Positions 16,671-22,329 of a DNA stretch of 64,000 bases are shown one piece after another. The position numbers and the translations under genes are program-made. The stretch's first letter is position 1; each line of letters opens with the position of its first letter. Source of the stretch: an uncultured Pelagibacteraceae bacterium (GTDB lineage: Bacteria > Pseudomonadota > Alphaproteobacteria > Pelagibacterales > Pelagibacteraceae); contig CACFIL010000003.1 in the NCBI GenBank assembly GCA_902566315.1, forward strand, positions 20,654-84,653. Reading direction: 5' to 3'. The notes beneath the pieces are model-generated. The model was not told the DNA's origin, made no database searches, and saw only the letters and a program-made list of their open reading frames with translations.

Positions 16671-17417
16671 ATGAATTCAAATTATTTAGAAAAAAAAAAA
16701 GTTTTAATTGCTTTTGAAAAGAAAAATTTTCAAGAGGTAATACGTACAGGTGAAAAATTACTAAAAGAGAGACAAAATGATACACAATTAATATTTTTAT
16801 TAGGATTAGCATCTATAAATATTCATAATTTTATTAATGCAGAAATTTATTTTGAAAAATTAATTTTACTAAAAAAAAATGCAGAAAATTTATATACATT
16901 AGGAAATATTCAAAAAAGGTTAAAAAAATTTAATCAAGCTCTTGTTTCATTTGAAGAGGCTATAAAATTAAAACCTCATTTTTCTGAAGCATATAACAAT
17001 TTAGGTAGCACATTAAAGTCTTTAAATAAATATGAAGAGGCAATACTTAGTTACAAGAAATCAATTAAAATAAACAAAAGTAATTTTGAGGCAAACTATA
17101 ATCTTGCAAACTTATTTTTTTTTTTAGAAAACTATATTGAAGCAATAGATTATTATAAAAGTATAATTAATTTAGAGACAAGAAATGAAGAAAGTTGTGA
17201 AAAATATACAATATGCTTATCTAAAACAGGTAAGAAAAATGAGGTAAAAGATTTTGTTTTAAATATTATCTCAAAATATCCAAATAACAGAGTTTTAAAT
17301 AATTTATTGGGACAATCATTGTTATCTTTAAATTACCATAAAGAAGGTTTATCTTACATAAGGAAGGGAGCAGGTTTTTTACAACTTGATAAAAATGGAG
17401 TTAACTTATTAAAATGA
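16671..17417 (+). CDS. TPR-repeat protein
   Basis: Repeated TPR units (AENLYTLGNIQKRLKKFNQALVSFEEAIKLKPHFSEAYNNLGSTL...). Confidence 0.85.
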   Translation: MNSNYLEKKKVLIAFEKKNFQEVIRTGEKLLKERQNDTQLIFLLGLASINIHNFINAEIYFEKLILLKKNAENLYTLGNIQKRLKKFNQALVSFEEAIKLKPHFSEAYNNLGSTLKSLNKYEEAILSYKKSIKINKSNFEANYNLANLFFFLENYIEAIDYYKSIINLETRNEESCEKYTICLSKTGKKNEVKDFVLNIISKYPNNRVLNNLLGQSLLSLNYHKEGLSYIRKGAGFLQLDKNGVNLLK

Positions 17418-18010
17418 AAAGAATAAATATAAGTACTGAAAAATCACCAAATTTTATTGGATGCTGGTACCTTAATAATGAAAATATTAGCAAAGGTATA
17501 ATTAATTTTTTTGAGTCAAACCAATCTTTCCAAAAAAAAGGAACTACAGCAAAAGGAGTTGAAGAAAATAGAAAAAGATCAACAGATATAACAATAAGCC
17601 CAAATAAATTATCAGATCCTAAATATAAAGTTTTTCAAGATTATTTTTCTGAACTTCAAAAATGTTTTTTGGACTATAGAGAACAGTGGCCGTTTGTGAA
17701 AGAGTTTTTAACAAAAGTTAACGTTGGACCTTTTAATGTCCAAAAATACTTTCCGGGAGATCATTTTGCAGCTCTACATTCTGAAAGAACAAATTTGTCA
17801 ACGCTGCATAGAATCTTTGCTTTTATGACATACTTAAACGACGTTAATGATGGAGGAACCACTAACTTCGATCACTATGGATTAAAAATTAAGCCTGAAA
17901 ATAATAAAACATTAATTTGGCCAGCTGAATGGACACACGCGCATACAGGGTCTGTATTAAAAAGTGGAACGAAGTATATAATTACAGGTTGGTTTGATTT
18001 TGCATCTTAA
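17414..18010 (+). CDS. 2OG-Fe(II) oxygenase (prolyl-4-hydroxylase-like)
   Basis: QKYFPGDHFAALHSERTN...FAFMTYLNDVNDGGTTNFDHYGLKIKPENNKTLIWPAEWTHAHTGSVLKSGTKYIITGWFDF, with HxE/H...K-type residues of the DSBH fold. Confidence 0.8.
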   Translation: MKRINISTEKSPNFIGCWYLNNENISKGIINFFESNQSFQKKGTTAKGVEENRKRSTDITISPNKLSDPKYKVFQDYFSELQKCFLDYREQWPFVKEFLTKVNVGPFNVQKYFPGDHFAALHSERTNLSTLHRIFAFMTYLNDVNDGGTTNFDHYGLKIKPENNKTLIWPAEWTHAHTGSVLKSGTKYIITGWFDFAS

Positions 18011-18045
18011 AATAAACACTCAAAATCTTTATTTCATTTATTTAA

Positions 18046-19686
18046 ATGAGCTCTAAAAACTTCTTATATAACAAAAAGATTATTTTAGATAATTTTAACA
18101 AAGGCAAATTTGAAAAAGTTGTTAAACTTGGAAAGAAATTGCTAAAATTAAAAAAAGATTTTCAAATATTATATGTATTAGGATTAACTTATTTAACCTT
18201 AAAGAATTATTTAGAAGCTGAAAAATATTTTAGTAATATTGTTTTATTGAAGCCTGATGCAGAAAATTATTACATATATGGGAATATTCATAAGCAATTG
18301 AAAAATTATAATAAAGCCTCAGAATATTTTTTAAAAGCCATTAGTCTAAAGCATGACTATTCAGAAGCTTATAATAATTTAGGAAATACTAAATTTAAAT
18401 TAGGGTTAACTGAAGAAGCAATCAAAAATTACAAAAATGCAATAAAATTTAGTAAAAAAAATATTCAGGCTTATTTTAATTTAGCACACGTCTTCAGTGA
18501 AGAAAAAAATTTTGAAGACCTAAAAAAAATACTTCAAGAAGTATTGAAATTAGATGAAAAAAATACCACAGCCTTGAATGACTTAGGATACCTAAATTTA
18601 ATTCTTGGAAATATAGATGAAGGAAGAAGATTATTTAAAAAAGTAATTGAAATTGACAACAAACACATAAGAGCCTTTAAAAATTATTTTTTAATTACAA
18701 AAGTAGAAAAAGATAACGAATTTTTAAAAAAACTAGAAAAAATTGACTTATCAAATGTAAATAATGAGGATAAAATATTTGCATACACTAGTCTTAGTAA
18801 ATGTAACTTTGATTTAGATAATTCTGATTTAGCTCTTAAGTATCTCGCAGAGTCACATAAAATAAAAAAACTAAAGTCAAACTTTAGTTTTGAAACAGAA
18901 AAAAAACTCTTTGATAAAATAAAAAATATTTTTAAACAAAATGAAGATAGACCAAATAAGCATACAAATAAGCTTGATTTCATACCAATTTTTATTCTTG
19001 GTATGCCAAGATCTGGAACAACTCTATTAGAACAAGTTCTTTCATCTCACTCAAATATACATGGTGCTGGTGAACTTAATTACTTGCCTAAAATTATAGA
19101 TGATGTTGGGTTAGATAAGATTAAAAACTTTGATAGCTTTATTAAAAATATAAGATCTGAATATTATAAAAAAATTATGCAATTAAGTAACAAAAAATTT
19201 ATTATTGATAAATTACCAATGAATTTTAGATGGATAGGCTTCATAGTCAAAGCCTTTCCTGAAGCTAAAATAATTCACGTGCAAAGAAATCCAATGGCTA
19301 TTTGTTGGTCAAATTACAAAATTAATTTTCCTGATCCAGGTATGGATTATTCTCTAAGTCAAAAGGACACTGCAAAATATTATATATTGTATGATGACCT
19401 CATGAAATTTTGGTCAGAAAGACTAAAAAAAAAAATAATAAACATAAACTATGAAAATTTTGTAAATAATTTTGTAAATCAAACACACAGTTTAGTTGAG
19501 AAACTTGAAATTAAATGGGAAGAAAATCTTAAAAATTATAGGAAAAATGCTAGACCAGTACAAACCGCATCTCTCTTGCAGGTGAGGGGAACAATTAAAA
19601 AAAATACCTCTGAAGATTGGAAAAAATATAGACATCATTTAAAAGTAATGCAGGAAACTCTAGATGCAGCTAAAATAGAATATTAA
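18046..19686 (+). CDS. TPR-domain sulfotransferase
   Basis: TPR N-terminus; FILGMPRSGTTLLEQVLSSHSNIHGAGELNYLP (5'-PAPS loop) and IIHVQRNPMAICWS (3' motif). Confidence 0.9.
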   Translation: MSSKNFLYNKKIILDNFNKGKFEKVVKLGKKLLKLKKDFQILYVLGLTYLTLKNYLEAEKYFSNIVLLKPDAENYYIYGNIHKQLKNYNKASEYFLKAISLKHDYSEAYNNLGNTKFKLGLTEEAIKNYKNAIKFSKKNIQAYFNLAHVFSEEKNFEDLKKILQEVLKLDEKNTTALNDLGYLNLILGNIDEGRRLFKKVIEIDNKHIRAFKNYFLITKVEKDNEFLKKLEKIDLSNVNNEDKIFAYTSLSKCNFDLDNSDLALKYLAESHKIKKLKSNFSFETEKKLFDKIKNIFKQNEDRPNKHTNKLDFIPIFILGMPRSGTTLLEQVLSSHSNIHGAGELNYLPKIIDDVGLDKIKNFDSFIKNIRSEYYKKIMQLSNKKFIIDKLPMNFRWIGFIVKAFPEAKIIHVQRNPMAICWSNYKINFPDPGMDYSLSQKDTAKYYILYDDLMKFWSERLKKKIININYENFVNNFVNQTHSLVEKLEIKWEENLKNYRKNARPVQTASLLQVRGTIKKNTSEDWKKYRHHLKVMQETLDAAKIEY

Positions 19687-19751
19687 ATGTTCAAGATTAA
19701 TATTTGACTATTGCTTAATTTCAAAAAAACTACTACTTTCAACCATTATAG

Positions 19752-19797
19752 AACAAGCGGGCATAGCTCAGTGGTAGAGCGTCTCGTTGCCAACGAG
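19752..19797 (+). repeat. 46-bp partial tRNA-Gly(GCC) copy: 5' flank aacaa plus 5' half through the anticodon stem
   Basis: aacaagcgggcatagctcagtggtagagcgtctcgttgccaacgag is identical to 21399-21444; sequence diverges immediately afterwards. Confidence 0.95.
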
Positions 19798-19856
19798 GTA
19801 GTCCTTGGTTTTTTATCCTTGCTAATCTTAGTCTTTCTCAACGTCTAGTTAATCTT

Positions 19857-19873
19857 GACACACTCACGACACA
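19857..19873 (+). repeat. 17-bp direct repeat, left copy (gacacactcacgacaca)
   Basis: Identical to 21312-21328. Confidence 0.9.
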
Positions 19874-19990
19874 CTTTGACACAGAAAAGAAAAATTATGG
19901 TGAGTGGAATAAAATATAATTGTAATTAAACTGTTACAAATTTTTCATCTTGTTTTGATAACTTTTCAGAAAATCAAATAGGAATATATA

Positions 19991-21241
19991 ATGATAAAAT
20001 TAATCTTAGCAGGCCTTCTGTCCTCAACTGCATTTGTTAGCACAGTAAATGCAGACTTTAAAGAAATTGGGAAATTTGGAACACCAGCAAATAACCCTAG
20101 TGCAGAAGAAACTTCAGCAGAAATAATTGCAGCAACAGCAGATGGCATGAAACTGGTATATAGCGATAGCCCTGCAAACGCATTAGGCATGATTGATATT
20201 ACTGATCCAGCAAATCCGAAACCATTAGGCCACATGAATTTAGGTGGTGAACCAACTAGTGTTGCAATCAAAAATGGACAAGCATTTGTAGGTATTAATA
20301 CTTCTCCAAACTATGTAGAGCCAAGTGGTCACTTATTAGTTGTTGATCTTGCCTCAGGAAAAGAAGTTACAAAAGTAGAACTAGGTGGACAGCCAGACTC
20401 GGTTGCAGTTAGTCCAGATGGAACTTTTGTGGCAATAGCTATTGAAAATGAACGTAACGAAGATATCAACGATGAAAAAATTCCACAACTTCCAGGGGGT
20501 TTTGTGGCAATTATTAATTTAGCAGATAACAGTGTTACTAAAGCGGACTTAGTTGGTTTTTCAACTATTGCTCCTAACGATCCAGAGCCTGAGTTTGTTG
20601 ATATCAATAATTTAGGTGAAATAGTTGTTACTATGCAAGAGAATAACTGGATGGCGGTTATTGATCGAAGTGGAAAAGTAATTTCAGAGTTTGATGCAGG
20701 ACTAGTAACATTAGAAGGTGTTGACAATAAAAAAGACGGTGAACTAAAGATGGTTGATACCATTGAGAATGTTCGTAGAGAACCAGACGCAGTTAAGTGG
20801 ATTGACAATGATCATTTTGCAACTGCAAATGAAGGTGACTATAAACATGAAGCACCGGGTCAAGCAAAACGTGGTGGTAGTCGTGGATGGACAATCTTTA
20901 ATAAAAATGGTTCGGTGGTATACGAGTCAGGTTCGTCATATGAAAGAGCACTCGCTTCAGCAGGTTACTGGCCAGAAAAACGTGCAGAGAAAAAAGGTGT
21001 AGAACCAGAGTCAGTTGAAGTAGCAATGTATGGTGATACACGTTATATCTTTGTTGGTGCTGAAAGAGCAAATGCTATCGGTGTTTATAAAGCAAATGAT
21101 TTAACAAACCCAGAATTAGTTACTATATTACCAACAGGTATTGGACCAGAAGGTTTGGTTGCTATTCCACAACGGAACTTATTTATAAGTGCTAATGAAG
21201 TTGACAAAGAAAAATCAGTTACAATTTATAGCTTAGATTAA
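19991..21241 (+). CDS. Secreted beta-propeller protein (choice-of-anchor-I / LVIVD-YVTN-like), probably horizontally acquired
   Basis: Signal peptide MIKLILAGLLSSTAFVSTVNA; repeated blades (GEPTSVAIKNGQAFVGIN, GGQPDSVAVSPDGTFVAIAIENERNE, PEGLVAIPQRNLFISANE); 8 of 11 Arg codons are CGN. Confidence 0.75.
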   Translation: MIKLILAGLLSSTAFVSTVNADFKEIGKFGTPANNPSAEETSAEIIAATADGMKLVYSDSPANALGMIDITDPANPKPLGHMNLGGEPTSVAIKNGQAFVGINTSPNYVEPSGHLLVVDLASGKEVTKVELGGQPDSVAVSPDGTFVAIAIENERNEDINDEKIPQLPGGFVAIINLADNSVTKADLVGFSTIAPNDPEPEFVDINNLGEIVVTMQENNWMAVIDRSGKVISEFDAGLVTLEGVDNKKDGELKMVDTIENVRREPDAVKWIDNDHFATANEGDYKHEAPGQAKRGGSRGWTIFNKNGSVVYESGSSYERALASAGYWPEKRAEKKGVEPESVEVAMYGDTRYIFVGAERANAIGVYKANDLTNPELVTILPTGIGPEGLVAIPQRNLFISANEVDKEKSVTIYSLD

Positions 21242-21258
21242 TAACTAAATTAAGCCTG

Positions 21259-21276
21259 TGGGGGCGTTAGCCCCCA
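21259..21276 (+). terminator. GC-rich hairpin downstream of the island beta-propeller gene (no strong U-tract)
   Basis: tgggggc-gtta-gccccca perfect stem just after the stop codon at 21241. Confidence 0.6.
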
Positions 21277-21311
21277 ACATAAACTTTCATGTAAAGTTTT
21301 AAAAAAATCTC

Positions 21312-21328
21312 GACACACTCACGACACA
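21312..21328 (+). repeat. 17-bp direct repeat, right copy (gacacactcacgacaca)
   Basis: Identical to 19857-19873. Confidence 0.9.
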
Positions 21329-21361
21329 GTTGGTGATAAATTTTACTAATTTAACTAATAC

Positions 21362-21390
21362 TTGCATTTCTAAAAACCGCTATCTATAAT
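21362..21390 (+). promoter_or_regulatory. Sigma70-type promoter of tRNA-Gly
   Basis: TTGCAT - 17 bp - TATAAT located 13 bp before the tRNA 5' end. Confidence 0.7.
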
Positions 21391-21403
21391 GATTTTTTAA
21401 CAA

Positions 21404-21478
21404 GCGGGCATAGCTCAGTGGTAGAGCGTCTCGTTGCCAACGAGAAGGTCGTGGGTTCGAGTCCCATTGCCCGCTCCA
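21404..21478 (+). tRNA. tRNA-Gly (anticodon GCC), CCA encoded
   Basis: gcgggcatagctcagtggtagagcgtctcgttgccaacgagaaggtcgtgggttcgagtcccattgcccgctcca; acceptor gcgggca/tgcccgc, anticodon stem ctcgt/acgag, T-loop gttcgag. Confidence 0.96.
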
Positions 21479-21483
21479 AAATT

Positions 21484-22329
21484 ATGATTATTTGGATCGC
21501 CTCCTATCCCAAAAGTGGAAATACATATCTAAGATCTTTCATTTCTTCATATTTTTTTTCAAAAAAAGGGAAATTTGATTTTGATTTACTTTTAAATATT
21601 CTCCAATTTCCATCGGTTAAATTTGCAAAAAAAAAAATTTATTCTGAATTAGAAGCAAGTCAAAGTTGGATTTTTAATCAGCAACAGTTTTTCTCAGATG
21701 GAAACATACATTTTATAAAGACACATAGCAATTTAAATGAATACAAAGGAAATAATTTTACTACCAAAAATTTAACGCTTGGTGGAATTTATATAGTCAG
21801 AGATCCAAGAAATTTAATAACTTCAATGACTCATCATTATTCATTAGATTATGATCAAGCATATTCAAAGCTAATTAATGAAAATCAAACTCTTTTAGAA
21901 AAACCTATGGATGGTGATTATAGTAATTTTACGTTTTTGGGATCATGGTCTAGTCATTACAAGTCTTGGAAAAATACAAATGAATTTAAAATTTTGTTTA
22001 TAAAGTATGAGGATTTAGAAAATAATAAATATGAGACTTTTAAAAAAATAGTCAATTTTATAAATACTTTAAAAAAAAATAAATCGTCAATTAATGAAAA
22101 AAAACTTATTAATTCTATTAACTCTACAAATTTTTCTAATTTAAAAAATAAAGAGGAAAGGGAGGGTTTCGAAGAAAGTATATATTCAAGATTGGGAGAA
22201 AAAAAACCTTTTTTCAATTTAGGTTTTAATAATAGATGGCAAAAAATCTTGCCAAAAAATATTTTAAATAAATTAAATAATGCTTTGCAAAATGAATTAA
22301 ATGACTTAAATTATATTATTCATGAATGA
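21484..22329 (+). CDS. Sulfotransferase family protein
   Basis: MIIWIASYPKSGNTYLRSFISSYFF and GGIYIVRDPRNLITSMTHHYSLDY; the listed ORF start (21418) lies inside the tRNA, so start moved to ATG 21484. Confidence 0.88.
   Translation: MIIWIASYPKSGNTYLRSFISSYFFSKKGKFDFDLLLNILQFPSVKFAKKKIYSELEASQSWIFNQQQFFSDGNIHFIKTHSNLNEYKGNNFTTKNLTLGGIYIVRDPRNLITSMTHHYSLDYDQAYSKLINENQTLLEKPMDGDYSNFTFLGSWSSHYKSWKNTNEFKILFIKYEDLENNKYETFKKIVNFINTLKKNKSSINEKKLINSINSTNFSNLKNKEEREGFEESIYSRLGEKKPFFNLGFNNRWQKILPKNILNKLNNALQNELNDLNYIIHE

Follow-up and report, generated by a model that had tools for sequence, protein, structure and literature searches.

The segment at 19757-21444 of the window, by which we mean the whole 64-kb stretch of a SAR11 genome analyzed here, is very probably a non-autonomous integrative element of ~1.65 kb with a single gene. 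It has tRNA-Gly(GCC) as its precise insertion target and encodes no recombinase. The first-pass annotation of this DNA had suggested a cargo-only element that depends for its movement on an integrase gene located elsewhere, and this is still the best reading: an empty site, other cargo, and integrase-bearing kin were all found at the same tRNA, and mobilization in trans by the integrase of another element is what we infer from them.

Attachment sites and gene content of the element

An exact 46-bp repeat (aacaa plus bases 1 to 41 of the tRNA) was found at 19752-19797 and again at 21399-21444; in a longer register the same repeat covers 109 nt with 77% identity. An exact repeat of this length within 64 kb is not a chance occurrence. 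The sole tRNA detected by ARAGORN in the window was tRNA-Gly(GCC) at 21404-21478, and repeat and prediction together agree with the earlier observations that the tRNA is complete at the right-hand copy and that its 5' half is the duplicated part. The left copy (attL, 19752-19797, plus strand) is the displaced tRNA-Gly 5' half, which still lies downstream of the original host promoter region and whose upstream sequence matches an empty site in genome G640. The right copy (attR, 21399-21478, plus strand) is the restored, intact tRNA-Gly(GCC), and in its counterparts host-specific 3' halves follow identical element ends. Bases 1 to 41 of the restored tRNA are element-derived and bases 42 to 75 host-derived. 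At four sites (L095, L096, L112, and L128), the same element end is joined to four different tRNA 3' halves. Because the 3' half goes with the host, and the 5' half goes with the element, as does the promoter, the crossover lies inside the tRNA gene. The probable core is the anticodon stem-loop palindrome CTCGTTGCCAACGAG (19783-19797, not assigned to a strand, repeated at 21430-21444), where a crossover had been proposed before; left copies in some other elements are identical only up to ...AACG, which fits this position, and the 3' halves beyond it vary with the host. The tRNA gene is apparently single copy, with one match per genome, several single-contig genomes included, a count that reflects a pattern search and not a full tRNA annotation. 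RNA folding of the displaced half-tRNA was unremarkable (z = -1.23), and a terminator-like match at 19794-19807 was discarded, as shuffled sequence gives as much.

A second repeat pair, not noticed in the earlier annotation, lies slightly inward of both ends, with TGACACACTCACGACACA on the left (19856-19873) and CGACACACTCACGACACA on the right (21311-21328); it has the consensus (T/C)GACACACTCACGACACA and a chance expectation of 0.00 by shuffling. The left, P'-like arm (19857-19883, plus strand) has three GACACA boxes, at 19857, 19868, and 19878, and the right, P-like arm (21312-21328, plus strand) has two, at 21312 and 21323. A palindromic core with arm-type repeats on both sides is the layout of a lambda-type tyrosine-recombinase attachment site, which these ends would represent. 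Measured from the core, left arms are located at +53 to +57 in the window, in most cargo-only elements, and in the integrase-bearing elements L119 and L120; right arms are located at about -95 in most cargo-only elements and at about -133 in L119 and L120. Left and right arms matched better within one element (mean, 16.7/20) than across elements (14.6/20), with exceptions such as L059, L076, and the hybrid L100, whose own two arms were not better matched. This is the pattern expected if the arms are putative binding sites for integrases of differing specificity. The right arm was present upstream of tRNA-Gly in 23 GTDB SAR11 genomes; the right-arm loci belong to Pelagibacteraceae/Pelagibacterales, mostly named single-cell isolates (AG-, SAG-), with some labelled MAG.

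The only substantial gene occupies 19991-21241 (plus strand) and no recombinase domain was found, in line with the earlier description of ~1.6 kb holding one secreted beta-propeller gene and no integrase. The product, a 416-aa protein with a signal-peptide-like N terminus, is related to choice-of-anchor I proteins (Pfam choice_anch_I, 1e-10, and NHL; NCBIfam choice_anch_I, 3.5e-37, under the cut-off of that model). The gene is rare, occurring at ≥97% identity in 6 of 247 family genomes. Downstream of it, two features were read from the sequence: a GC hairpin GGGGGC-GTTA-GCCCCC (21260-21275, plus strand) as the likely end of transcription and a promoter-like TTGCAT-17-TATAAT (21362-21390, plus strand), which is borne by the element, accompanies it in the propeller copies, and now stands before the tRNA. 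A consensus promoter scan left the latter unranked. At L162 (G191:C23:10000-20000), a propeller gene 97% identical to that of the window was found, but arms of the window type were not detected in its vicinity; the cargo therefore exists outside such elements as well.

Integrase-bearing relatives and probable traces of a lost integrase

Two tRNA-Gly elements, L119 (8,355 bp) and L120 (6,066 bp), carry a tyrosine integrase directly after the left arm, accompanied in L120 by a DUF5906 primase. In L059, a circular IMG/VR contig of 6 kb, the 5' half of tRNA-Gly precedes the same layout with an integrase, wrapping around the contig ends; the contig also encodes a terminase small subunit (TerS; PF03592, 7.5e-7; phrog_51, 2.4e-12) and a RepA/primase-like protein. 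The circular IMG/VR contigs L076 and L077 resemble L059 in size and integrase and have a tRNA-Val 5' half, and L080 is a truncated, integrase-bearing tRNA-Val copy in the genome of G017. Terminal repeats of 123, 99, and 55 bp were present in L059, L076, and L077, respectively. The integrases of L059, L076, L077, L119, and L120 were 56 to 86% identical, and that of L078 was more distant (41 to 47%). None of the conjugation genes searched for was found in the closest integrase-bearing relatives, which carry TerS and RepA/primase-like genes. Integrase relatives in phage records were at most ~33% identical and none was informative.

A full-length integrase with the exact arms of the window was found neither in viral contigs nor in 147 family genomes (exact pattern). 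The single IMG/VR match to this pattern, L075, falls within coding sequence of a tailed phage and was taken as chance, as were four further IMG/VR arm-pattern matches lacking the tRNA half (L114-L117). Among the IMG/VR contigs that contain the 5' half of tRNA-Gly, most have an apparently complete tRNA, and L059 alone is an attP. An apparently complete tRNA-Gly with near-identical 60-bp upstream sequence was seen in L052, L056-L058, L060, L062-L068, L071, L072, and L074. The predicted attP junction of the mini-element (right end, tRNA half, left end) would read ...ttttttaacaa-tRNA 1-41-GTAGTCCTTGG; no circular form of it was seen, IMG/VR having yielded only the 6-kb relative.

After the left arm, the window has agaaaagaaaaattATGGTGAG at the position of the RBS and ATG in the integrase-bearing elements. 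The stretch that begins there (agaaaagaaaaattATGGTGAG..., 19884-19929, plus strand), a 10-codon ORF, is a probable remnant of an integrase gene start, judging from an alignment by eye with L059, L076, L077, L080, L119, L120, and a remnant in G167. In that genome (L160, G167:C1:184000-193000), the propeller gene lies outside tRNA-Gly, and a right-hand window-type arm is followed by aaaaaagaaagggaaaagcaATGCCGACACTA, with an integrase-like RBS and start and a stop codon soon after. We read the G167 remnant as the probable vestige of an integrase that formerly acted on arms of the window's sequence; the sequence expected before the start of a full-length integrase of this kind is CGACACACTCACGACACACTT. 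The neighboring genes of L160 recur, together with phnDCE-ubiE, in L147, a larger island at tRNA-Gly in G485.

A single PF00589 protein of ~325 aa is present in each of the near-complete carriers G043 (99%), G141 (96%), and G058 (94%) and likewise in G003, G035, and G078, which have no second tRNA copy; G000 has one of 305 aa (also given as 305 to 311 aa), and extra PF00589 matches occur at the element in G407 and G457, the hosts of L119 and L120. Since the near-complete carriers have no extra integrase, the mover must be either a resident recombinase or one from outside; many relatives are incomplete genomes, and outside the near-complete ones the absence of an integrase is weak evidence. The resident protein (~325 aa, or 305 to 311 aa in G000) might move the elements with no helper satellite needed, and its family is represented by at least one member in 21 of the 26 genomes examined and by a sole member in several near-complete carriers. 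This is nevertheless unlikely, because the resident proteins differ from the integrase family inside the att sites, no match to the L059 integrase was found in G000, G043, or G141, and the arm sequences vary by element, as for several integrases and not one. A mover from outside is therefore favored.

Other cargo in the same slot and a second tRNA target

Other cargo at the same tRNA, foreseen by the first-pass annotation, was found in relatives at 12 further tRNA-Gly sites of 861 bp to 8.4 kb, of which two, L119 and L120, are integrase-bearing. The cargo includes a pilin-like protein (L122), a sulfotransferase-like protein recognized by eye (L126), a DUF4268 protein matching the PADLOC candidate defence family PDC-S11 (L033), a trypsin-like protease (L113), a GHKL-type ATPase (L103), a 915-aa protein (L032), and phnD-phnC-phnE-ubiE (L099). 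L100 and L105 are hybrids that combine the cargo and right end of the window element with a left end and arm of the L125 type.

The window and L099 were 96% identical in the left end, 98% in the right end, and 55% in the middle, where unrelated stretches, such as middles with different cargo, score ~40 to 55% in global alignments. The L099 record is AG-899-N21, the Pelagibacter cell used to illustrate phnCDE-ubiE transfer between Pelagibacterales and HIMB59, which was the only cross-order transfer that the GORG-Tropics study accepted under its criteria; the presence of tRNA genes and tyrosine recombinases near phnCDE-ubiE had already been noted there (PMC12416821). The phnCDE-ubiE operon of this cell sits inside an element with the window's ends, which makes the mechanism of the transfer testable. 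SAR11 is among the most abundant bacterial groups of the ocean and its gene acquisition is poorly known; the element is a tangible vehicle for it, and its defined ends allow any SAR11 genome or metagenome to be screened.

Cargo-only elements of the same architecture, with matching arm repeats and sizes of 1.7 to 4.7 kb, were also found at the 5' half of tRNA-Val(UAC), namely, L166 (G102, 1.9 kb), L167 (G383, 4.7 kb), L170 (G367, 1.7 kb), and L171 (G409, 3.3 kb). L167 has a 196/197-aa protein in common with L119. The mini-element L171 (TTTTTGCACACTGTGTGCACAG) and the integrase element L080 (TTTTGCACACTGTGTGCACACTT) have nearly the same left arm and are a likely arm pair. An 8.8-kb tRNA-Val element, L168 (G382:C2:49800-61500), encodes a TerS-like protein by sequence resemblance and, at its far end, a different, longer integrase-like protein of 467 aa.

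Empty sites and horizontal movement

Of 399 genomes sampled from this genus, 315 contained a match to the 5'-half pattern of the tRNA, two mismatches being allowed, and a second tRNA-Gly copy was present in 19 of the 315, the window's own genome included; the site frequencies are those of the sampled genomes under this pattern. Both copies in all relatives at conserved divergence, the outcome named earlier as pointing to an old tandem duplication, were thus not found. The wider family sample contributed the carriers G043, G058, and G118, and 30 distinct occupied sites were collected, 18 with the propeller element and 12 with other cargo. The anticipated empty site, with one tRNA-Gly right after the TPR-sulfotransferase gene, is present in G640 (L144), where caacacttatagaacaa, the whole tRNA-Gly, and aaattatgattatttggatcgcctc follow one another as the window's left flank joined directly to its right flank, and the same layout occurs in L145, L146, and L150-L152. 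The upstream flank of the window was 86% identical to G640 over 1,252 bp. Around tRNA-Gly, the window carries TPR, 2OG-Fe(II) oxygenase-like, and two sulfotransferase genes (16671-22326), a neighborhood that differs among relatives.

The propeller element occupies 18 sites (the window and 17 others in SAR11) with lengths of 1,646 to 1,689 bp, a mean identity of 97.1%, and a minimum of 90.7%. Mean identity of the flanks was 52.5% for the upstream 600 bp and 58.5% for the downstream 1 kb, again in global alignments with the background for unrelated stretches given above. Both flanks were below 60% in 61 of 91 comparable pairs, at element identities of up to 99.9%, and the upstream flanks formed 12 groups at 70% identity. 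By these comparisons, the window element has moved horizontally between SAR11 lineages.

Recombination is frequent in SAR11 (PMC7542561), and the hybrid ends of L100 and L105 show that it takes place between elements. A spread of the cargo by ordinary homologous exchange between conserved flanks, as in a replacement-type flexible island and with no site-specific step, is nevertheless very unlikely, since identity ends at the anticodon stem both left and right, near-identical elements often have flanks below 60% identity, the 5' and 3' halves of one tRNA differ in history, and the arm repeats and integrase relatives would be left unexplained. A dead relic, be it a satellite or island that decayed, lost its integrase in place, and was inherited vertically or a tandem duplication with pseudogenisation, would suit the missing integrase, with its 10-codon remnant at the expected start, and the decayed-looking sites (a mutated left half in L163, no left copy in L147), but is most improbable given that empty sites exist and that the integrase-less form is 97 to 99.9% identical in most pairs across 12 upstream contexts, which argues for movement after integrase loss.

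Proposed mobilization and relation to known elements

The favored cargo-only element moved in trans would descend from an integrase-bearing, satellite-like element of which only the two ends remain, everything between the arms having been lost and cargo acquired. On entry of a related satellite or phage into a carrier cell, the integrase of the newcomer may recognize the sites of the mini-element in trans and excise it as a circle, which could reach a new cell by packaging or uptake and integrate again. There it would supply the 5' half and promoter of an apparently single-copy tRNA gene, so that imprecise loss of the right end should be lethal and the element stabilized. A broader proposal, on which we are evenly divided, is a three-tier SAR11 system of phage, integrase-bearing satellite, and cargo-only elements of 0.9 to 4 kb that parasitize satellite integrases and occupy the 5' half of two or more tRNA genes; it would provide general cassette exchange across SAR11, phosphonate uptake genes included, and its elements would be hard to delete because they carry the promoter and 5' half of a tRNA that is essential.

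The nearest concept for att-flanked elements lacking an integrase is the CIME, or cis-mobilizable element, which comes from the decay of ICEs and IMEs (PMC5704250). Like a CIME, the window element has attL and attR with a shared core and no integration or transfer genes, and it would be moved by the recombinase of another element. Unlike CIMEs, which derive from an ICE or IME, it has satellite-like integrase-bearing kin and a parent resembling a phage satellite; the elements here have 0.9 to 4 kb with one or few genes and spread widely alone, not in tandem with an ICE. As phage satellites, VEIMEs, and PICMIs are outlined in PMC10803314 and PMC11389934, the integrase-bearing relatives resemble them in their integrase and primase/helicase genes and, for L059, in TerS. 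The DUF5906 primase domain of L120 is shared with PICMIs, but neither L059 nor L120 showed the complete PICMI complement (AlpA, Fis). An own integrase with replication genes, characteristic of phage satellites, is present in L059 and L120, an integrase in L119, and neither in the window element.

Tycheposons of Prochlorococcus are summarized in PMC10872708 as tRNA-bordered elements of 4 to 200 kbp with a tyrosine recombinase. Cargo at tRNA genes of streamlined marine bacteria, the tyrosine recombinase family, and, in one sister element, nutrient-uptake cargo are points of likeness; by that description, the window element shares the tRNA border and is set apart by its 1.65 kb and lack of a recombinase. 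MITEs and CALINs, termed "hitchers" (PMC11389934), are likewise non-autonomous DNA dependent on a recombinase or transposase encoded elsewhere, but they rely on transposases or integron integrases, whereas here phage-integrase-type sites at a tRNA gene are used. According to one review (PMC8371274), restored bacterial tRNAs usually retain their original promoter, and use of the tRNA 5' half is confined to pTN3 within the archaea and rare in bacteria. pTN3-like integrative elements share the 5'-half use but are archaeal (PMC8371274), and the window element is a clear bacterial case of it, with promoter replacement.
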